Origin: Methylotenera sp.
GTDB taxonomy: Bacteria; Pseudomonadota; Gammaproteobacteria; Burkholderiales; Methylophilaceae
Direction: 5' to 3'
Length of the DNA stretch: 41,529 nt
Assembly (NCBI RefSeq): GCF_029945705.1
Contig: NZ_JAQSDC010000011.1
Coordinates: 1-41,529, forward strand
The notes under the pieces were generated by a model. It saw only the letters and a program-made list of their open reading frames with translations, was not told the origin of the DNA and searched no databases. Each line of letters begins with the position of its first letter. The stretch's first letter is position 1. Positions 2,711 through 25,385 of this stretch are shown here, in pieces. The position numbers were made by a program, and so were the translations under genes.

Positions 2711-2750
2711 GGTTTGTTTAGAAGTGAAGTAAATAAGGGTGCTAAATGAA

Positions 2751-3293
2751 ATGATGAAAAGAGAAATTATGGAGTTGCATCCAGACTTAGTTTATTTAGG
2801 TGGGGCAGATCAATATGAAGAAGAGATTTTTGAAATAATTGAAGATATTAAGCTTTTCGAGGCTTTTAGCCTTGATGAGGTGAGAACTCTATGTCAGTTG
2901 ATGCAATGTTACGCGGCGCCCAAAGATATGACTTTGTTAAAAGAAGGTGATGCGGGAGACTTTTTAATCTTAATCTTAACTGGCACTGTCGAAGTGACTA
3001 AAACGATTTCAGTTGGAGATGTAAAGTTAATATCACAAGTTGGTGTGGGCGCTACACTTGGTGAGATGTCTATGATAGATGGGTGTCCAAGATTTGCCAG
3101 TTGTGTCACGCTTTTGCCAACAGATTTTGCTGTCTTAACACGTGAAACGCTCAATGACGTTCTCTTACAAATGCCTAGATTAGGAAATAAGCTATTACTA
3201 ACTTTACTACAAACTATGAGTATTAGGCTTCGTGAAGCCATTGTTCACACAAAGACAGATATTTCTAATGGATCGTATGTTGCATCGCTGTAA
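2751..3293 (+). CDS. Cyclic nucleotide-binding domain protein, single domain (position of epsK)
   Basis: About 180 residues, almost entirely one CRP-like cNMP-binding beta-roll. The phosphate-binding cassette reads GEMSMIDGCPRFAS: the Gly-Glu pair and the Arg-x-Ala that contact cyclic nucleotide in this family are all present. There is no DNA-binding helix-turn-helix after the domain, so it probably acts through protein contacts rather than as a CRP-type regulator. First gene of the rightward EPS operon. Start chosen at ATG 2751, preceded by AAGGG (2735-2739); a GTG at 2739 is an alternative with GAAG upstream. Its position, between epsA and epsL, matches epsK of the methanolan cluster as I recall it. 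Ligand unknown. Confidence 0.8.
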   Translation: MMKREIMELHPDLVYLGGADQYEEEIFEIIEDIKLFEAFSLDEVRTLCQLMQCYAAPKDMTLLKEGDAGDFLILILTGTVEVTKTISVGDVKLISQVGVGATLGEMSMIDGCPRFASCVTLLPTDFAVLTRETLNDVLLQMPRLGNKLLLTLLQTMSIRLREAIVHTKTDISNGSYVASL

Positions 3294-3333
3294 AATTTCC
3301 TTTGTGAAGCATAAACACAATAAAAATGCTTTG

Positions 3334-4524
3334 ATGAAGTTTACCTTAGCCTTTTCTAGTTTGTTGTTACAGATTACGACAACCTTTGCTTACGCAGATG
3401 GAGACGATACTGTTAATTTTTTAATTGGGACTGACTACAGGCATTATGATAATTTGTTTTTATTGCCAGAGGGTGTAAGTCCAGGCGGTAGTGCAAAGCG
3501 ATCTGATAATGTACTTGCAACAAATTTTGGCATTAATTTAAATAAGAAGTATGGTCTACAGACCTTCAAGTTTGATTATTCGCACATAGATAATAAATAC
3601 GATAATGCTGATTTTTTAAATTTCAATTCAAATAATTATAATGCGGCTTGGCTTTGGGCGCTTACTCCTAGCCTAACTGGATATTTATCATCTCAGCGCA
3701 AAGTTGATTTGATTCCATTTATCGATAATAGAAACTCAAACACGCAAAATGTACGCACGCTTGAATTGCAGTTATTCACTTTTGATTGGTCACCGCATAA
3801 TGTTTGGCATTTGCTAGGCGGATATACTAAGGTAAATAGTGTTAATAGCCAGACATTTTTGCAAGAAACTAGTTTTAAGCTGGACGCTTTCGATGTCGGT
3901 GTTAAGTATACATTGCCATCTGATAGCTTTATTGCGTTGAAGCTACGCACAAGTAATGGTGAGAATCAAGAAATTAATATCTCGAACCAAGTTGGTAAGG
4001 GTTTCTCTGAAAATGAAGCTGAGTTAAGCGCATTCTGGAAGTTGACAGGAAAGTCTAGTTTAAAGGCGAATTTAGGTCATAATATTCATTCTGATGACGA
4101 ATACAACCTGCGAGATTTCTCTGGTTATTTTGGAGGAGTTAACTACTCTTGGGATGCAAGCGAAAAGCTAAATATAAGTGCTAATTTGACTAGAAAACTT
4201 TCATCTTATCAAGATGTTACAAGTAGCTACACTGTTAACGACGAGCTAAGTATAAGGCCAACTTGGGCTTTAACTTCAAAAGTTGTTATTGGAGGCTCTT
4301 TGTTAGCAAGCAAAAGAAAATTTCTCGGTGATGGTCCTTCAGCCAGTGCAACAACGTCTACTCGGATTGATGATGGGTTTACGTATGGTATGAATGTGAC
4401 TTGGATGCCAAGAAGTACTATGCAGTTTGGTGTTACTTTGCAGCATGATGAGAGAGATTCAAACTTTGCAGATAGAGATTTCTCATCAAATACGGTGGGT
4501 CTCAATGGGCAGCTTACTTTTTAA
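3334..4524 (+). CDS. epsL: Outer membrane beta-barrel protein EpsL
   Basis: Predicted outer-membrane barrel of XrtB-type EPS loci. It has a signal peptide (MKFTLAFSS..., hydrophobic core, cleavage near AYA/DG) and about 370 residues of alternating hydrophobic/polar strands rich in Asn, Ser and aromatic residues, ending in the classic C-terminal phenylalanine (GLNGQLTF). No enzymatic motif is seen. The frame is open from 3232, but that would overlap the preceding gene and bury the signal peptide. GTG 3304 would give a longer, more basic n-region and is the main alternative start. It probably provides the outer-membrane passage or a docking barrel for EpsE; that role is inferred. Confidence 0.85.
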   Translation: MKFTLAFSSLLLQITTTFAYADGDDTVNFLIGTDYRHYDNLFLLPEGVSPGGSAKRSDNVLATNFGINLNKKYGLQTFKFDYSHIDNKYDNADFLNFNSNNYNAAWLWALTPSLTGYLSSQRKVDLIPFIDNRNSNTQNVRTLELQLFTFDWSPHNVWHLLGGYTKVNSVNSQTFLQETSFKLDAFDVGVKYTLPSDSFIALKLRTSNGENQEINISNQVGKGFSENEAELSAFWKLTGKSSLKANLGHNIHSDDEYNLRDFSGYFGGVNYSWDASEKLNISANLTRKLSSYQDVTSSYTVNDELSIRPTWALTSKVVIGGSLLASKRKFLGDGPSASATTSTRIDDGFTYGMNVTWMPRSTMQFGVTLQHDERDSNFADRDFSSNTVGLNGQLTF

Positions 4525-4548: not shown

Positions 4549-5514
4549 ATGAATAAAATTCTAAAACTTTTTCTTGTTATTGTTTTTTGCAATTTAGCTG
4601 CGTGTGGTAAGGGCGGTGAAAAAGCTGCAAGTTCACAAATAGCGGCTAAAGTAAATGATGTGGAGATTACAACGCACCAAATAGACGCTGTGATGAAGGG
4701 CGCACAAAACGTAACAGCAGAAAACGTTGCGGAATTCAGAAAAAAAGCCTTAGACAAGTTGATTGATCAGCAACTTGTCATTGATAAAGCCAGTAAAGAG
4801 AGTTTGGATAGAACGCCTGACGTTATTTTAGAAATAGAAGCGGCTAAAAAAGAAATACTAGCAAGAGCCTATTTAAAGAAAATGTTGGCTAACTCCTCAG
4901 AAATGAATGATAGCGAATTCAAAAAATATTACGATGAGCACACCGAGCTGTTTTCTAAACGTCGTATATATAACCTACAAGACATCAGTGCTCAAAATAG
5001 TGCGCAGACACTTGATCTGCTTAAGGAAAGTGTAGCCGCTCAGAAATCTATGATGGATATTGCTGATAGCCTAAAAGCTAAAGGCATTAAGTTTTCAAGT
5101 GGCTCTTTTACACGCCCAGCAGAACAACTGCCCTTGGATATTTTACCTAAAATGCAGTTGCTTAAAGGTGGTGATATGTTTGTTTGGCAGTCGGGTGATA
5201 TTGCTCATGCGATTAAATTAACCAGTATTGAAGAGTCGCCAGTCGGCTTGATTGAAGCTACACCAATGATTAAAAATTACTTCATTAATACGCGAGGTAA
5301 GCAAATGGTTGAAGATAAAATAAAAAAATTCCGCCAAGAGGCTAAGATTGAGTATTTAGGTGCATTTGCAAATCAACAAGCTGCTAATTTAGCAGATAAT
5401 AACCAAGTGAAGCCTTCTGTAACAGAGGGAACTAATTCTGCTGCTATTGCAGGTGAGCAAAAGAAAGCAAAGAAAGACTTAACTATTGAAGCTGGTGTAG
5501 CAGGCTTAAAGTAG
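4549..5514 (+). CDS. epsD: EpsD-family peptidyl-prolyl isomerase-like lipoprotein
   Basis: 321-residue periplasmic lipoprotein. The signal peptide ends in a lipobox LAAC with the lipidated Cys at residue 19. The body resembles SurA/PpiC chaperones: an N-terminal helical domain with QLVIDKASKE (about 75-84), then a parvulin-like segment (about 125-225, YYDEHTELFSKRRIYNL...). The parvulin fold is divergent, so chaperone activity is more likely than strong isomerase activity. It sits between epsL and epsE, which fits assembly of the EPS outer-membrane barrel. The Lys/Ala/Asn-rich C-terminal 50 residues look disordered. AAGG lies 13 bases upstream of the start, a weak site. Confidence 0.85.
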   Translation: MNKILKLFLVIVFCNLAACGKGGEKAASSQIAAKVNDVEITTHQIDAVMKGAQNVTAENVAEFRKKALDKLIDQQLVIDKASKESLDRTPDVILEIEAAKKEILARAYLKKMLANSSEMNDSEFKKYYDEHTELFSKRRIYNLQDISAQNSAQTLDLLKESVAAQKSMMDIADSLKAKGIKFSSGSFTRPAEQLPLDILPKMQLLKGGDMFVWQSGDIAHAIKLTSIEESPVGLIEATPMIKNYFINTRGKQMVEDKIKKFRQEAKIEYLGAFANQQAANLADNNQVKPSVTEGTNSAAIAGEQKKAKKDLTIEAGVAGLK

Positions 5515-5553: not shown

Positions 5554-6627
5554 GTGAAACTACGTTTTTTAAGATTCATTACTACAATAGGTTTGTTTTT
5601 GACAATTTTGTCGTTTAACAACATTGCTAATGCGGGTGACAAGCAGGACTATTTATTGGGTGCAGGTGATTCAATTCGCATTAATGTTTTTCAAAACCCT
5701 GAATTAACCACTGAAACTCAAGTTTCTGGGGCTGGGTTAGTGACGTACCCGCTCATTGGACAGGTTAAGGTTGGTGGGAAAAGCATCCCAGCCGCGGAGC
5801 AATTAATTGCTCAAGCCTTAATCAAAGGTGGATATGTAAAAGAGCCACAAGTAAATATTGTATTGTTATTAGTGAGGGGCAATCAAGTAGCTGTGCTAGG
5901 TATGGTGAATAGACCAGGGCGTTACCCGCTAGAAACTTCAGATATACCACTTAGCCATGTTTTAGCGACGGCTGGTGGCGTATCAATTAATGCTGGCAAT
6001 GGTATGGCGCTATTATTAGGCACTCGTGATGGTCAGTCATATAAATATGAGGTTGACCTTGCGTCCTTATTTCTAGGTGATAAAAAGGCCGAAGACGTGC
6101 TAGTAAGCAATGGTGATGTGATCTACGTTACACCTGGGAATCAGGTTTCAATTATTGGTCAAGTGTTGCGACCAGGTAGGTTCCCTTTAGATGGTGTTAA
6201 AATGCGACTAGTCGATGCACTTGCAATGGCGGGTGGAATGATTCCTAGTGCATCAGATTCTGTTGTTGTGACAGGAATACATGATGGACAGCCATTCAAA
6301 AAAGAGTTTGATGTTGCAGGCATTTTCCTCTCGAATGAAACCACTGAAGATATCAATGTTGTTGCCAATGACCAAATCTACGTGCATCGCGCACCGGTGT
6401 ACTATATTTACGGTGAAGTGCAACGCCCTAGTAGCTATAGAGTAGAAAGAAATATGACCGTAGTGCAAGCCTTAGCTCAAGGTGGTGGCCCAACTGTACG
6501 TGGTACACAACGGAATATTAAATTAATGCGACGTAATGATGCTGGTGTGGTAGAAAAGGTAGTGCCTAAGTTGACTGACTTAATTAAAGCAAATGATGTG
6601 TTGTATGTTGAAGAAAGTCTATTTTAG
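5554..6627 (+). CDS. epsE: Polysaccharide export (OPX) protein EpsE
   Basis: Wza-related periplasmic/outer-membrane export protein of 357 residues. It has a signal peptide (cleavage near ANA/GD), a Poly_export domain (about 33-105, starting DYLLGAGDSIRINVF) and three SLBB domains beginning near 109, 208 and 283, each with the repeated pattern GxVxRPGxYPL...ALAxAGG. Unlike Wza there is no lipobox cysteine, and the protein stops right after the third SLBB (DVLYVEESLF), so the C-terminal helix that forms Wza's outer-membrane pore is missing. It therefore probably depends on a separate barrel, with EpsL the obvious candidate. GTG start with AGGGA at 5543-5547. Confidence 0.9.
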   Translation: MKLRFLRFITTIGLFLTILSFNNIANAGDKQDYLLGAGDSIRINVFQNPELTTETQVSGAGLVTYPLIGQVKVGGKSIPAAEQLIAQALIKGGYVKEPQVNIVLLLVRGNQVAVLGMVNRPGRYPLETSDIPLSHVLATAGGVSINAGNGMALLLGTRDGQSYKYEVDLASLFLGDKKAEDVLVSNGDVIYVTPGNQVSIIGQVLRPGRFPLDGVKMRLVDALAMAGGMIPSASDSVVVTGIHDGQPFKKEFDVAGIFLSNETTEDINVVANDQIYVHRAPVYYIYGEVQRPSSYRVERNMTVVQALAQGGGPTVRGTQRNIKLMRRNDAGVVEKVVPKLTDLIKANDVLYVEESLF

Positions 6628-6635
6628 GGATATTT

Positions 6636-8039
6636 ATGAATTTACTTCAATTTTTATTGATATTAAAAGCTCGTTACAAAGTTATTCTGATTACTTTCCT
6701 TATTACGGTATCAACGGCCACTGTAGTGACATTATTTTTACCCAAGAACTACACTGCAACAACTTCACTACTACTCAATTATAAAGGCATGGACCCTGTA
6801 ACAGGCATGGTTCTGCCAGCACAATTAATGCCAGGCTACATGGCAACACAGAACGATATTATACAAAGCCGAAATATTGCACTTAAAGTGGTTAGTCAAC
6901 TTGGGCTGGATAAGTCGGAGCAAGCACAAGAGCTATTTAGAAAATCAGCTAAAGGTGTCGGCGATATTAAAAACTGGTTGTCTGATTTATTGCTGAAAAA
7001 CCTTACGGTGAAGCCATCTAAAGAAAGCAGTGTAATAGAAATCTCGTTTAATAGTGAGGATCCTAATTTTGCAACTGTTGTGGTCAATTCGTTTGCAGAA
7101 AACTATCAACAAACTAGCACTCAATTAAAAGTGGCTCCAGCGCAGCAGGCTGCAGGTTATTTTGGTCAGCAAGTGAAAGTTTTGAGGGATGATTTAGAAT
7201 TAGCACAATCTAAGTTATCATCTTATCAACAAGAAAAAGGCATTACAAATCCAGAACAGACATTAGACGTAGAAAGCATTCGTTTGAATGAATTATCTAC
7301 ACAATTGAGCATGGTGCAAGCAGCCTCGATAGACTCTCAATCACGTAATGCAAATGCTCAGAGAAGTGCATTAGATTCACCAGATATTGCATCTAGCCCG
7401 ACAATACAAGGCCTTAAATCTGATTCTGCTCGGGCAGATGCTAAATTAGCTGAGTTAGCCCAGCGTTTAGGTAAAAATCATCCTGCATATAAATCTGCAG
7501 AAGGTGAGGCTAATAAAATTAGAAGTCAGTTGCATGAAGAGGCTCAGCGCTTATCAAACAGTATAGGTAATTCGGCCAGTATCAATCAGCAACGAGAGTC
7601 ACAACTTCGCGCTCAAGTTGAGATGCAAAAGAAAAAAGTACTATCGTTAAATCGCTTAAGAGATGAAATGGGCATTCTGCAGAAAGATGTAGAGGTGGCA
7701 AAAAAAGCGATAGATGCTGTCACACAGCGTTTTAGCCAAACCAGTATTGAAGGGCAATCAAATCAGAGTGATATTGCTATTTTAAATCCTGCAATTCCAC
7801 CAACTTCCCCAAGTAGTCCGAGAGTACTTTTAAATATAGTCTTGGGCGCATTTGTGGGTATGGTGCTAGGCATAGGTTTTGGACTATTAGCTGAATTATT
7901 AGATAGACGAGTTCGTGGTAGAGATGATATTTCTATCATATTAGGCGTACCAGTATTTGCCGTGATTGAGGGCAATACTACAAAGACGAGTGAAAACTTA
8001 TTGCTAGGGCAAGCAAGAAAACTGCTTACTTCTAATTAG
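6636..8039 (+). CDS. epsF: Chain length determinant protein EpsF (Wzz-type co-polymerase)
   Basis: 467-residue inner-membrane polysaccharide co-polymerase that sets EPS chain length. It has an N-terminal membrane helix (about 16-36), a large periplasmic part with coiled-coil helices (about 165-385), and a second helix (about 408-432) after the proline-rich motif NPAIPPTSPSSPR that marks Wzz proteins. A short basic cytoplasmic tail follows. There is no fused kinase domain; the partner EpsG is the next gene, 6 bp away. Start at ATG 6636 with AGGGA immediately upstream, 8 bp after epsE, so translation is probably coupled. Confidence 0.92.
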   Translation: MNLLQFLLILKARYKVILITFLITVSTATVVTLFLPKNYTATTSLLLNYKGMDPVTGMVLPAQLMPGYMATQNDIIQSRNIALKVVSQLGLDKSEQAQELFRKSAKGVGDIKNWLSDLLLKNLTVKPSKESSVIEISFNSEDPNFATVVVNSFAENYQQTSTQLKVAPAQQAAGYFGQQVKVLRDDLELAQSKLSSYQQEKGITNPEQTLDVESIRLNELSTQLSMVQAASIDSQSRNANAQRSALDSPDIASSPTIQGLKSDSARADAKLAELAQRLGKNHPAYKSAEGEANKIRSQLHEEAQRLSNSIGNSASINQQRESQLRAQVEMQKKKVLSLNRLRDEMGILQKDVEVAKKAIDAVTQRFSQTSIEGQSNQSDIAILNPAIPPTSPSSPRVLLNIVLGAFVGMVLGIGFGLLAELLDRRVRGRDDISIILGVPVFAVIEGNTTKTSENLLLGQARKLLTSN

Positions 8040-8045
8040 AAACAT

Positions 8046-8927
8046 ATGGGTGATATTAACGTGGATAAAAAGCAATTAGTGCCAAATGATGCTCGCAAAG
8101 CCGACTCAAGTATCGGTAAGTTACTACTTGATTTAGGAAAGATAAATCCAGAAGACGCTGAGCGTGTTCTTAGATTACAAAAAGCAGAAAATATTCGCTT
8201 TGGTGACGCGGCTCAAAAACTTGGTTTAATTACTGAGGCCGATATTAAGCAAGTATTGTCATTGCAATTTGATTACCCTTATCTTCAGCCTAATGAAGGT
8301 CAATTTAGTAAAGAGCTTGTAGCCGCTTATAAACCTTTTTCTAAACAGGTTGAGGCACTAAGAGCTTTAAGAAGCCAGTTAATCCTTCGGTGGTTTAATG
8401 AGGGTTATAAGTCGTTAGCGATTGTTTCTGCAACATCAGGAGACGGATGTAGTAACTTGGCGGCAAACCTAGCCGTAGTGTTTTCTCAGTTGGGCGAGCA
8501 AACCTTGCTTGTTGATGCCAACCTAAGAGAGCCTGTTCAACATAAGATTTTTAACTTAAACGAATCAAGAGGGCTTTCCGATATTTTAGTAGGTCGCGCA
8601 GGTCTTGAGGTCGTAAAAAAAGTAGACTCATTTGTAGATTTAACTGTGTTAGGTGCAGGTACGGTACCTCCAAATCCACAAGAGCTACTAAGTCGTTCTA
8701 ACTTTGTAGAGTTTATGAAACAGGCAACCGCACATTATGATGTAGTGATTGTCGATACCGCACCTGCCGTTGAAACCTCTGATGCGCAAACTGTAGCAAG
8801 TCGCTGTGAAGGAGCATTGCTAACATCTAGGCTCAATCAAACGCGACTGTCAGATTTAACCAATATTCGCGATCAACTAACACTTGCTGGTGTTCAAATT
8901 GTTGGGGCTGTGGTTAACGACTTTTAA
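8046..8927 (+). CDS. epsG: BY-kinase-like protein EpsG with MshEN-like N-terminus and degenerate ATP site
   Basis: 293-residue cytoplasmic partner of EpsF. Residues about 100-293 form the BY-kinase/MinD-like fold: Walker A region SATSGDGCSN (128-137), A' motif LLVDANLREP (D157), Walker B VVIVDTAP (D237). Residues 22-74 are two 24-residue motifs spaced by five residues, the layout of the MshEN domain (see findings). Oddities: the Walker A lysine is replaced by Cys135, the usual second Asp of the A' motif is Asn159, and the C-terminus (VVNDF) has no tyrosine cluster. It may regulate chain length without tyrosine phosphorylation. EpsG family is clear from sequence and context; activity is doubtful. 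Confidence 0.88.
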   Translation: MGDINVDKKQLVPNDARKADSSIGKLLLDLGKINPEDAERVLRLQKAENIRFGDAAQKLGLITEADIKQVLSLQFDYPYLQPNEGQFSKELVAAYKPFSKQVEALRALRSQLILRWFNEGYKSLAIVSATSGDGCSNLAANLAVVFSQLGEQTLLVDANLREPVQHKIFNLNESRGLSDILVGRAGLEVVKKVDSFVDLTVLGAGTVPPNPQELLSRSNFVEFMKQATAHYDVVIVDTAPAVETSDAQTVASRCEGALLTSRLNQTRLSDLTNIRDQLTLAGVQIVGAVVNDF

Positions 8928-9029: not shown

Positions 9030-9890
9030 ATGCCGCTATTGCCATTTCTAACAATATTGCTTGGCCTTTTAGTTGTTTATGTACCCACATTTTATGATTT
9101 ATTTCATGGCATTTGGAAAACAGATCAACAAGCTCATGGCCCAATTGTATTTGCTGTAGCGCTGTGGTTTTTCTATTACAAGGCTAAGCTATTAGTTAAC
9201 ACTAAAATTCCTATTATTCCCGCTCCAAAGTTAGGATGGCCTGTTTTAGTGATTGGCTGTATATTTTATGCTATTGGCAGATCTCAATCACTCTATATTT
9301 TTGAAGTAGGTTCATTCGTGGTTGTGCTCCTTGCTTTAACCCTCATGTTTTTTGGCGTTGGCATAGCTAAACACTTCTGGTTTGCATTCTTTTTTATGTG
9401 CTTTATGGTGCCGTTGCCACCCTCTGTGATTGATATTATCACCCAGCCAATGAAGATGGCTGTTTCTTACGCATCTGAGCATTTGCTATATCAAATGGAC
9501 TACCCTGTCGCTAGAAATGGAGTCATCATCTATATCGGGCAATATCAGCTGTTAGTTGCCGATGCATGTGCAGGCTTAAACTCATTATTCACATTAGAAG
9601 CACTAGGCTTACTCTATATGAACGTGATGAGACATGAATCACCCATGCGCAATGCATTGCTAGCCACCTTGATAGTACCGATATCTTTCGCCTCTAATGT
9701 CACAAGAGTGATTGTATTAGCGCTCATTACTTTTTACTGGGGGGATGAAGCAGGCCAAGGCTTTGTACACCAATTTTCAGGCATGTTTTTATTTATGACA
9801 GCATTAATGTTGATTATGGGTGTTGATAGCTTATTAAGAGTTATTACAAGTAAGTTAGAAAAGCGCTCAACAACGGCGCTTAAGAGTTAG
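9030..9890 (+). CDS. xrtB: Exosortase B (XrtB)
   Basis: 286-residue polytopic inner-membrane transpeptidase with about eight membrane helices. The exosortase catalytic triad is present: Cys180 in DACAGLNSL, Arg226 in SNVTRV and His247 in HQFSG. Exosortases cut and transfer proteins bearing a C-terminal PEP-CTERM signal (Pro-Glu-Pro, membrane helix, basic tail). No protein with that tail is encoded in this window, so substrates must lie elsewhere or be unusual. It lies 102 bp after epsG and is followed after 5 bp by epsI, the invariant partner arrangement of the B type. No clear ribosome site precedes the ATG. Confidence 0.94.
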
Positions 9891-9895
9891 CGAAC

Positions 9896-10609
9896 ATGAT
9901 GAAAATCAACATGTTCGTTTTTCCTCAAATCACTCAAAGAAAAAGCCTATTAGTTGCAGCGCTTTTGATTATAGCCGCATTATTTGCCATTAAACTAACA
10001 CCAACCTTGCACGCCGTAGATACCACGCCAGATCTTGACAAGATTATCCCAACAGCGTTTGGTGAGTGGAAGCAGATTGCAGACCCATTTACGCAAGTAA
10101 GCTTGACTACGGGGGGCAATGACCTAGCTAGTCAGCTCTATGACAAAATAGTAATGCGCACATATGCCAATAGAAATGGCGATAGAGTTATGCTAGCCAT
10201 AGCCTATGCACGCGAGCAGAAACAAGATATTAAAATTCACCGCCCAGAGGTTTGTTATGTAGCTCAAGGATTTCAGCTATTAAGTAAGAAAAACAACACC
10301 ATCAATATGCAAGATGCAAAACCTATCAAGGCTCAGCGTTTGTTAGTGAGCAACCAAAATCGTTATGAAACCGTTAGCTATTGGATAAGAATTGGTGATG
10401 ACTACCCTGCAAGCGGTATGGCGGCTAGGCTGAAGATATTACGTGATGGTTTAAAAGGAAGGGTTTTAGATGGCGTGTTAGTTAGAGTATCAACTGCAAT
10501 TAGCGACCCTGCTAATGCAGAAGCTACGTACAAAAAACAAGAGGCATTTCTAGTTGAGTTAGTTAACTTTACTAACGCTAAGATCCCTAGTGTGCTAGTT
10601 GCTAAGTAG
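9896..10609 (+). CDS. epsI: EpsI family protein, exosortase-B associated
   Basis: 237 residues with one N-terminal membrane anchor (about 16-36) and a periplasmic domain carrying the EpsI signature HRPEVCY (His115-Cys120). The family always accompanies exosortases, either fused or adjacent, and its biochemical role is not settled. The conserved His and Cys suggest it takes part in substrate handling or transfer. It is 5 bp downstream of xrtB. ATG 9896 and ATG 9899 are equally possible starts. Confidence 0.92.
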   Translation: MMKINMFVFPQITQRKSLLVAALLIIAALFAIKLTPTLHAVDTTPDLDKIIPTAFGEWKQIADPFTQVSLTTGGNDLASQLYDKIVMRTYANRNGDRVMLAIAYAREQKQDIKIHRPEVCYVAQGFQLLSKKNNTINMQDAKPIKAQRLLVSNQNRYETVSYWIRIGDDYPASGMAARLKILRDGLKGRVLDGVLVRVSTAISDPANAEATYKKQEAFLVELVNFTNAKIPSVLVAK

Positions 10610-19400: not shown

Positions 19401-19444
19401 TGTTTTCATGAGTAACTACCAACATCAACTTGAAGCAATCATTT

Positions 19445-20188
19445 ATGCTAAATAAAAACACAGTGATGATTGCAAAATTTCCTGTGCAAATGACATCGCC
19501 AGATGAATTAACCGAGCATATATACGGTTGCATAGGTGCATCAAAAAAAAGTATTTTATTTTTTGCAAATACCAATTTCGTTGTTAAATGCAAGCTGCTG
19601 GTAGAGCGCTTTTTAAATGATGATGTTGTGATTGTTAACGATGGCTTAGGCATGGATATTGCATGTATGTTGTTACATGGGCGCAAGTTTAAATCTAATT
19701 TGAATGGTACGGATTTTATGCCGTATTTTTTTTTGCAATCTAAGCAGAAGTTACGCGTATTTTTGTTGGGTGGCCAACCTGAGACTTTAAATGGCGCTGC
19801 TTATTATTTAGCTCATACGTTGGGGCATGTGGTGGTAGGTACTTGTGATGGCTACGATGGTATAAAAAATGCTCAAAATTTAGTTGATACTATCAATGAG
19901 GCTTGTGTTGATGTCGTGCTAGTTGCTCTAGGTAATGCTGAGCAAGAGGAGTGGATACTGACTAATTATCAGCAAATCAACGCAAAATTTTTTGCGGGTG
20001 TTGGGGGGTTGTTTGATTTTTGGAGTGGTGATAAACCTCGTGCACCAAAGTGGATGCAAAATATTCGAATGGAATGGTTTTACCGATTATGTTTAGAGCC
20101 TAAACGGCTTTATAAACGCTATACGGTTGATGCTTTAAAGTTCCTAATCAGCTGTATTAAATATAGAAAGCAGCGTGTTAGATCATGA
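19445..20188 (+). CDS. WecG/TagA/CpsF-family glycosyltransferase (first copy)
   Basis: About 247 residues, GT26 family, a peripheral membrane enzyme adding a sugar (ManNAc-, ManNAcA- or glucose-type in known members) to an undecaprenyl-linked acceptor. Family motifs: FFANTNFVV, IVNDGLGMDI (with the conserved catalytic Asp), NGTDFM, VFLLGGQPE, VLVALGNAEQEEWI and the C-terminal GGLFDFWSGDKPRAPKWM...EWFYRL. The C-terminal basic tail (KRLYKRY...KYRKQRVR) probably anchors it to the membrane. ATG 19445 is preferred (GAAG 9 bases upstream); TTG 19430 is in frame. Divergent in its N-terminal third from the second copy at 24606. Confidence 0.86.
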   Translation: MLNKNTVMIAKFPVQMTSPDELTEHIYGCIGASKKSILFFANTNFVVKCKLLVERFLNDDVVIVNDGLGMDIACMLLHGRKFKSNLNGTDFMPYFFLQSKQKLRVFLLGGQPETLNGAAYYLAHTLGHVVVGTCDGYDGIKNAQNLVDTINEACVDVVLVALGNAEQEEWILTNYQQINAKFFAGVGGLFDFWSGDKPRAPKWMQNIRMEWFYRLCLEPKRLYKRYTVDALKFLISCIKYRKQRVRS

Positions 20189-24578: not shown

Positions 24579-24605
24579 TAAAGTTTTTTGAGAGTCCTAA
24601 AAAAT

Positions 24606-25385
24606 ATGGCAAATATCATTACAAAAAAAATTAACTTATTTGGGGTTACGATTAATCCTCTCACGATGAACGAAACGGTAGATTTCGTGAGTACATGGAT
24701 AAAGTTTGCAGAAAGTGATTGCAAGTTTATTGTGACACCAAATGTGAATTGCGTTGTGCAGTTAAGTAAAAATCAAGCTTATCGAGATGCCTTTGAAAAT
24801 GCCTCAATGGTCGTGGCCGATGGTAAGCCCGTAGTATGGACTGCTAGGCTAATGGGTGAGGAGATTCCAGGCACAGTCACTGGTAGTGACTTAGTGCCAG
24901 CTATTTTTCAACACTTTCACGATGAAGCGGATGCTGAATTAAAAGTTTTTTTACTTGGCGCAATGCCTGGTGTGGCGGAGCTTGCTGCAAGTAATATTGA
25001 GCGTACATATCAGAAGGTTAAAGTGACAGGCTTGTATAGTCCGCCATTTGGATTTGAAAAAGATGCCGTGGAGTGTGAGCGAATTTGCCAGATGATTAGC
25101 CACTCTGGAGCAGACTTTTTGCTGATAGGTCTTGGAGCGCCAAAACAAGCAACATGGGTTAACCAGTATGCTAAACAATTACCTGTTAAAGTCGCAATAT
25201 GCGCAGGTGCAACGATAGATTTTTTAGCTGGCAATAAGCCGCGCGCACCTAAATGGATGACTAATATTGGCATTGAGTGGTTTTACCGCATGGTGATTGA
25301 ACCTAGGCGTTTGGTAAAACGTTATGCTGGTGACGCGCTAGTGTTTCCAAAGTTGGTTTGGAAAGAGTGGAAGAGTCGTCATTAA
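24606..25385 (+). CDS. WecG/TagA/CpsF-family glycosyltransferase (second copy)
   Basis: About 259 residues, GT26. It is closer to the family consensus than the first copy: FIVTPNVNCVVQL (with the conserved Thr), VVADGKPVVW (catalytic Asp), PGTVTGSDLVP, VFLLGAMPGV, LLIGLGAPKQATW and AGATIDFLAGNKPRAPKWM, then EWFYRM and a basic tail. Likely adds a second sugar of the repeat unit; donor unknown. ATG 24606 is preferred (GAGAG 11 bases upstream); TTG 24588 is in frame. It is the last gene of the plus-strand EPS run and ends 12 bp from the convergent acyltransferase. Confidence 0.88.
   Translation: MANIITKKINLFGVTINPLTMNETVDFVSTWIKFAESDCKFIVTPNVNCVVQLSKNQAYRDAFENASMVVADGKPVVWTARLMGEEIPGTVTGSDLVPAIFQHFHDEADAELKVFLLGAMPGVAELAASNIERTYQKVKVTGLYSPPFGFEKDAVECERICQMISHSGADFLLIGLGAPKQATWVNQYAKQLPVKVAICAGATIDFLAGNKPRAPKWMTNIGIEWFYRMVIEPRRLVKRYAGDALVFPKLVWKEWKSRH

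Follow-up and report, generated by a model that had tools for sequence, protein, structure and literature searches.

The epsG gene at 8046–8927 on the forward strand of the Methylotenera sp. contig NZ_JAQSDC010000011.1 (41,529 nucleotides, the whole of which we call the window) encodes a 293-residue protein, which scored 418.5 bits against NCBIfam TIGR03029 (cut-off 313.8 bits). Our comparisons indicated that EpsG combines two modules. Judging from its sequence and structure models, the domain at residues 22–74 is almost certainly homologous to MshEN_N, of the cyclic di-GMP (c-di-GMP)-binding MshEN type. A linker at residues 75–99 leads to a degenerate bacterial tyrosine kinase (BY-kinase) domain at residues about 100–293, and EpsG is very probably a BY pseudokinase without kinase activity. 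The AlphaFold2 model of EpsG had a mean predicted local distance difference test score of 86.7, and the closest EpsG among the named loci (best 80 of 104) was that of Methylotenera sp. U-2020 MAG001, at 98% identity.

The N-terminal domain consists of motif I, SIGKLLLDLGKINPEDAERVLRLQ (residues 22–45; 8109–8180), the five-residue linker KAENI (8181–8195), and motif II, RFGDAAQKLGLITEADIKQVLSLQ (residues 51–74; 8196–8267), all on the forward strand. The first-pass annotation had proposed a 24-5-24 layout at 8109–8267 with Gly3, Gly10, Leu21, and Gln24 in both motifs, a leading Arg in the second motif only, and a Ser-Ile start of the first, and we confirmed each of these assignments. Positions 1, 2, 3, 10, 17, 21, and 24 are Ser, Ile, Gly, Gly, Ala, Leu, and Gln in motif I, and Arg, Phe, Gly, Gly, Ile, Leu, and Gln in motif II. 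Further deviations were Ala17 (corresponding to Leu25 of MshE) and Lys11 in motif I, and Phe2, Gln7, and Ile17 in motif II. The eight-residue double-motif pattern occurred once in a six-frame translation of the window (83,054 residues), in EpsG itself, and in none of 200,000 shuffles of EpsG residues 1–96.

The NCBIfam model NF053729 (MshE-related c-di-GMP_motif) matched EpsG residues 23–74 with an E-value of 3.1e-10 and 39.7 bits, a narrow margin over its cut-off of 38 bits; the same protein scored 43.0 bits in the genome-wide search. All 49 aligned EpsGs matched this model at E ≤ 0.001, an E-value threshold rather than the model cut-off. By sequence only, the first 96 residues matched PilF (E = 6.1e-10) and MshE (E = 0.006) in the PDB, and these two ranked ahead of all other proteins in sequence-profile searches with the EpsG N-terminus. 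The N-terminal model adopted a four-helix bundle like that of MshE–c-di-GMP, and c-di-GMP-bound MshE and PilF-GSPIIB were among its best structural matches, so the likeness proposed in the first-pass annotation also held at the level of predicted structure. No MshEN_C subdomain was seen in the EpsG model.

To define the family, we gathered EpsG frames from the best 80 of 104 named loci encoding a relative and from genome searches, in which frames were taken from among the matches listed. A family hidden Markov model retrieved 163 open frames at E ≤ 1e-5, which were split by bit score. Frames with at least 190 bits were classed as EpsG (130 frames, 120 distinct after dropping 10 duplicates, window's own copy included), those with 60–190 bits served as 29 BY-kinase-type controls, and four frames below 60 bits were excluded. 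The 53-residue double-motif segment had an identical length in all 120 EpsGs. The contact Gly residues (equivalent to G11 and G40 of MshE) were each present in 120/120, and the contact Gln residues (Q32 and Q61) in 117/120 and 119/120, respectively; the conservation expected by the first-pass annotation was thus found. The first Arg of motif II (R38 of MshE) was retained in 106/120. Among the hydrophobic contacts, the equivalent of MshE Leu10 was Ile in 103/120, Leu25 was Ala in 83/120 and Leu in 4/120, Leu29 was Leu in 97/120, Leu39 was Phe in 115/120, Leu54 was Ile in 112/120, and Leu58 was Leu in 118/120. In 107/120, both Gly and both Gln residues were accompanied by a hydrophobic residue at position 2 and position 21 in each motif and at position 17 in motif II; the same set plus Arg, Lys, or Leu at position 1 was present in 99/120 for motif II and in 6/120 for both motifs. 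Measured against the contact set R/K/L1, L2, G3, L17, L21, and Q24, the EpsG of the window keeps the Gly and Gln residues, departs at Ser22 and Ala38, and shows hydrophobic swaps at Ile23, Phe52, and Ile67. The mean entropy was 0.60 bits at the 12 contact positions versus 1.55 at positions outside both the contact set and the core. When 12 positions were drawn at random from the 53, conservation was as strong with P = 0.0014, and with P = 0.0011 when 45 EpsGs under 70% identity were used.

The position equivalent to Arg9 of MshE, motif I position 1 (8109–8111), was occupied by Ser in 76, Asn in 17, Arg in 6, Lys in 5, and other residues in 16 of the EpsGs. As described in the first-pass annotation, motif I starts with Ser-Ile. 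This start is not peculiar to the protein, since Ser or Asn, both good helix N-caps, occupies the position in 93/120; known binders carry Arg, Lys, or Leu there. These residues may represent a family-specific variant of the predicted binding site, and a helix-capping role for them is conceivable.

On the sequence and model evidence, EpsG is likely to bind c-di-GMP, with an uncertain affinity because motif I mostly has Ser or Asn where Arg is expected. PilF GSPII-B, whose position 1 residues are Lys and Leu, binds at 6 nM (PMC11731258), and changes of Arg9, Asp12, and Gln32 in MshE shifted the affinity no more than fivefold (PMC5013675). Against the MshEN assignment itself, Pfam T2SSE_N did not match EpsG at E ≤ 1, so that the profile comparison suggested by the first-pass annotation was borne out by NF053729 and not by this second profile. 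Other observations weigh against binding. Arg at the first position of motif I and Leu at the Leu25 equivalent are both scarce in the family. MshEN domains that do not bind the nucleotide do exist (PMC5013675, PMC12002112); in PilF GSPII-A constructs, Ser at motif II position 1 combined with a contact Gly-to-Ala change abolished binding, and the GSPII-A site is obstructed by an extended, capped helix α1 (PMC12002112). Helix 1 of EpsG likewise extends ahead of motif I in the models, with low confidence. The scarcity of these two residues and the existence of non-binding domains would fit an MshEN fold that has lost c-di-GMP binding and is kept for structure or for docking to a partner such as EpsF or EpsE, much like XpsE or PilF GSPII-A. 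We regard this alternative as a minority possibility: the published non-binders lack contact Gly and Gln residues (G11V, G40L, and Q61V in XpsE; His33, Ala41, and Arg62 in PilF-A), whereas EpsG retains them almost without exception, and its contact positions are more constrained than the remainder of the domain. A chance likeness within a generic four-helix bundle is extremely improbable in view of the top-ranking MshE and PilF matches, the invariant spacing, and the failure of shuffled sequences to produce the pattern.

The C-terminal half of EpsG matched the kinase domains of CapAB and Wzc in Foldseek searches (CapAB, E = 1.3e-18). The EX2RX2R motif, the ring interface of BY-kinases, is represented by E103-R106-R109 (8352–8372). 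It is followed by a degenerate Walker A motif, GDGCS (8439–8453), with Cys135 in place of the catalytic Lys; a Walker A' motif, LLVDANLR (8505–8528), with Asn159 in place of the second Asp; and a Walker B region, VVIVDTAP (8742–8765), with Asp237, all on the forward strand. In the alignment column of the Walker A Lys, this residue was found in 2/120 EpsGs versus 29/29 controls. The second Asp of Walker A' was kept in 10/120 and replaced by Asn in 110/120, versus Asp in 29/29 controls. At most one residue extends beyond the final strand in any EpsG, and in none of the 120 is it Tyr, whereas at least one tail Tyr was present in 28/29 controls. The last 20 residues contain at most one Tyr in every EpsG, compared with at least three in 26/29 controls and none in the other 3/29. 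EX2RX2R was intact in 120/120 EpsGs and in 24/29 controls. Thus, with catalytic residues and the Tyr tail lost and EX2RX2R kept, EpsG looks like a pseudokinase that has retained its assembly surface. The view of EpsG as a BY-kinase in the first-pass annotation stands for the fold and the EX2RX2R motif, and fails for the Walker A Lys, the Walker A' Asp, and the Tyr tail.

A further comparison was provided by the XrtA-associated tyrosine autokinases (TIGR03018; 30 loci, 26 over the cut-off), which, like EpsG, are found in exosortase-linked exopolysaccharide (EPS) loci. Unlike EpsG, all 30 have the Walker Lys and the Walker A' Asp, and all 30 carry three or more Tyr residues in the tail; their third EX2RX2R residue is Lys in 30/30. 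The pattern search found the double motif in 0/30 of these kinases and in none of the 29 BY-kinase-type controls; it is stricter than the alignment and recovers 114/120 EpsGs. A catalytically active BY-kinase whose Walker A motif is atypical and whose activity the MshEN domain modulates would agree with the tyrosine kinase name of TIGR03029, with the Walker Lys in two EpsGs, and with the Walker B Asp, whose retention in 115/120 EpsGs speaks against a pseudokinase. We consider such an enzyme improbable. Position 135 is variable (entropy 2.46 versus a protein mean of 1.34; the 46th most variable of 269 columns), the Walker A' Asp and the Tyr tail are rare or missing, and in both sets of comparison kinases the Walker Lys and Walker A' Asp are intact and the Tyr tail is present in most. 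The only two EpsGs with a Walker A Lys (L019 and L023) are both without a Tyr tail; they retain the 53-residue segment and the contact Gly and Gln residues, and in L023 position 10 of motif II is Arg. These two proteins may record an intermediate in the loss of kinase activity.

The presumed partner of EpsG is EpsF, a 467-residue transmembrane polysaccharide co-polymerase encoded immediately upstream (6636–8039, forward strand; TIGR03017, 615.8 bits; Pfam Wzz and GNVR), in which Pfam and NCBIfam searches found no kinase domain. EpsF adjoined EpsG in 80/80 named loci, and a basic (D/E/N)RR(V/I/L)R element was present in the last 100 EpsF residues in 73/80 loci. A 775-residue frame in the genome G431 was considered as an EpsF–MshEN–kinase fusion and rejected, as EpsF there is a separate 473-residue frame and the long frame is a GC-rich read-through.

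We slightly favor a model in which EpsG is a two-part regulatory subunit, with c-di-GMP, in place of tyrosine phosphorylation, switching its assembly with EpsF. EpsG would consist of a c-di-GMP-binding MshEN_N domain, a joint of about 25 residues, and a BY-kinase fold that is no longer catalytic. By analogy with CapB on CapA, and also with EcpK/EpsV, the pseudokinase half would dock onto the cytoplasmic tail of EpsF. In active BY-kinases, phosphorylation of the Tyr tail governs ring assembly. One half of the octamer interface is formed by EX2RX2R and the other by the Tyr cluster (PMC3795738), and Wzc forms an octamer in the non-phosphorylated K540M variant, the ring being destabilized by phosphorylation (PMC8285477). 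Because EpsG has no Tyr tail and almost never a Walker Lys, ligand-dependent folding of MshEN is proposed as the assembly control. MshEN_N sits directly ahead of the EX2RX2R helix; on binding c-di-GMP it would refold or move, and this change would set EpsF–EpsG ring assembly and hence export or chain length; the model leaves the direction, assembly or disassembly, unspecified. Its computed basis is the domain homology, the conservation, the loss of catalytic residues, the retention of EX2RX2R, and the linkage to epsF; c-di-GMP binding, the lack of kinase activity, and the control of EpsF by c-di-GMP are the parts that we infer. We give even chances to c-di-GMP controlling EpsF via EpsG. More speculative, and rather doubtful, is the proposal that c-di-GMP-loaded MshEN replaces the Tyr cluster as the switchable second half of the ring interface, which would apply to XrtB-type EPS loci in Betaproteobacteria and in methylotrophs.

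The window carries an XrtB-type EPS locus, in which every named gene, that of exosortase B included, exceeded its NCBIfam cut-off. In addition to epsF and epsG, the locus comprises epsL (3232–4524), epsD (4549–5514), epsE, encoding a polysaccharide export protein (5554–6627, forward strand; TIGR03028, 410 bits), the gene for exosortase B (XrtB; 9030–9890, forward strand; TIGR03113, 352.4 bits), and epsI (9896–10609). EpsE was present in 79/80 named loci, and XrtB in 63/80 when up to 3 kb of flanking sequence was considered (not seen there in 17, one of which is cut short). Upstream of epsL and overlapping its frame, positions 2739–3293 encode a 184-residue protein resembling CRP-type cyclic-nucleotide sensors, with no NCBIfam match over cut-off, which could feed a further nucleotide signal into the EPS locus. 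Two similar genes at 19430–20188 and 24588–25385, which we take by eye to encode glycosyltransferases of the WecG/TagA type, lie in one EPS locus.

The genome assembly (completeness 100, 60 contigs) contains 32 GGDEF domains, none of them on the contig of the window, and c-di-GMP is therefore very likely produced. Five MshEN matches were found in the genome: two EpsGs and three P-loop frames of 567–684 residues, which, by eye, are probably ATPases of pili or secretion systems. Searching with TIGR01007, a BY-kinase model, yielded seven matches, namely the two EpsGs, a 656-residue co-polymerase fusion on contig C4, and four ATPases of the ParA/Mrp type by inspection. The fusion (L176:4050–6020) carries a BY-kinase-like domain with a P-loop GEGVT that lacks Lys and has no terminal Tyr cluster, and by these features represents another type of pseudokinase co-polymerase besides EpsF–EpsG in the same genome. 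The second EpsG belongs to another eps locus on contig C38 (98000–112000), where EpsL-, EpsD-, EpsE-, EpsF-, exosortase-, and EpsI-like frames were recognized by eye. This EpsG is over the family cut-off and has Lys rather than Gly at motif II position 10, and its frame, as listed, overlaps that of epsF. A low-molecular-weight tyrosine phosphatase had no match in the genome of the window. Such phosphatases were found in 100/150 Methylophilaceae genomes and, by hand count, in 56/61 EpsG-bearing ones (two by short end fragments), and we dropped their absence as a general sign of a phosphorylation-free system.

EpsG shares features with several known systems. The NfrB model matched 6/49 EpsGs weakly; from the model name, we take NfrB to be an MshEN-bearing protein of polysaccharide production. 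It is a c-di-GMP-activated glycosyltransferase in the E. coli pathway for the phage N4 receptor, and a synthase, whereas EpsG is a co-polymerase partner. With Vibrio cholerae MshE (PMC5013675), EpsG shares the 53-residue double motif, the five-residue linker, the four-helix bundle, and the contact Gly and Gln residues; it differs in lacking MshEN_C in the model and the Arg of motif I, and in bearing a BY-kinase-like fold rather than a secretion ATPase. CapA/CapB and Wzc share the fold and the EX2RX2R ring-interface motif, but are active kinases with a Walker Lys and a Tyr cluster. Other counterparts are EcpK of Myxococcus and HfsB of Caulobacter, BY pseudokinases that stand alone and pair with co-polymerases (PMC12004946). 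These have in common with EpsG a BY-kinase fold without catalytic motifs or a Tyr tail and a partner co-polymerase lacking a kinase domain; the MshEN domain and the universal EX2RX2R motif set EpsG apart, a contrast known from the EpsG side alone. The main text of the EcpK paper mentions neither EpsG, MshEN, nor c-di-GMP (PMC12004946).

We found no open-access paper joining EpsG chain-length control or BY pseudokinases with MshEN or c-di-GMP. The literature match for EpsG together with MshEN concerned a type II secretion pseudopilin called EpsG, in a reference. The EpsG family was presumably named from the methanolan cluster. Among MshEN-containing systems, Wang et al. 2016 list exopolysaccharide biosynthesis of Methylobacillus sp., with the methanolan gene-cluster paper as reference, and EpsG is not named in the main text (PMC5013675). 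The MshEN protein meant there is, we infer, EpsG. The first-pass annotation had considered the link between c-di-GMP and EpsG undescribed; this agrees with the missing name, but the listing of Methylobacillus EPS and the existence of an NCBIfam model show that it had been partly anticipated. Its overall interpretation was partly supported.

Post-translational control of Wzx/Wzy systems is incompletely understood, unlike c-di-GMP control of synthases (PMC12802240), and the EcpK paper of 2025 asks how co-polymerases of the pseudokinase type are switched (PMC12004946). A ligand-binding domain on a pseudokinase would provide a testable answer to the latter. Under the present reading, the standing name "chain length determinant protein tyrosine kinase EpsG" would need correction, and chain length in Wzx/Wzy-type EPS would be controlled directly by c-di-GMP. 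On the more doubtful proposal of MshEN in place of the Tyr cluster, a second messenger would take the role of tyrosine phosphorylation in co-polymerase assembly and polysaccharide length.
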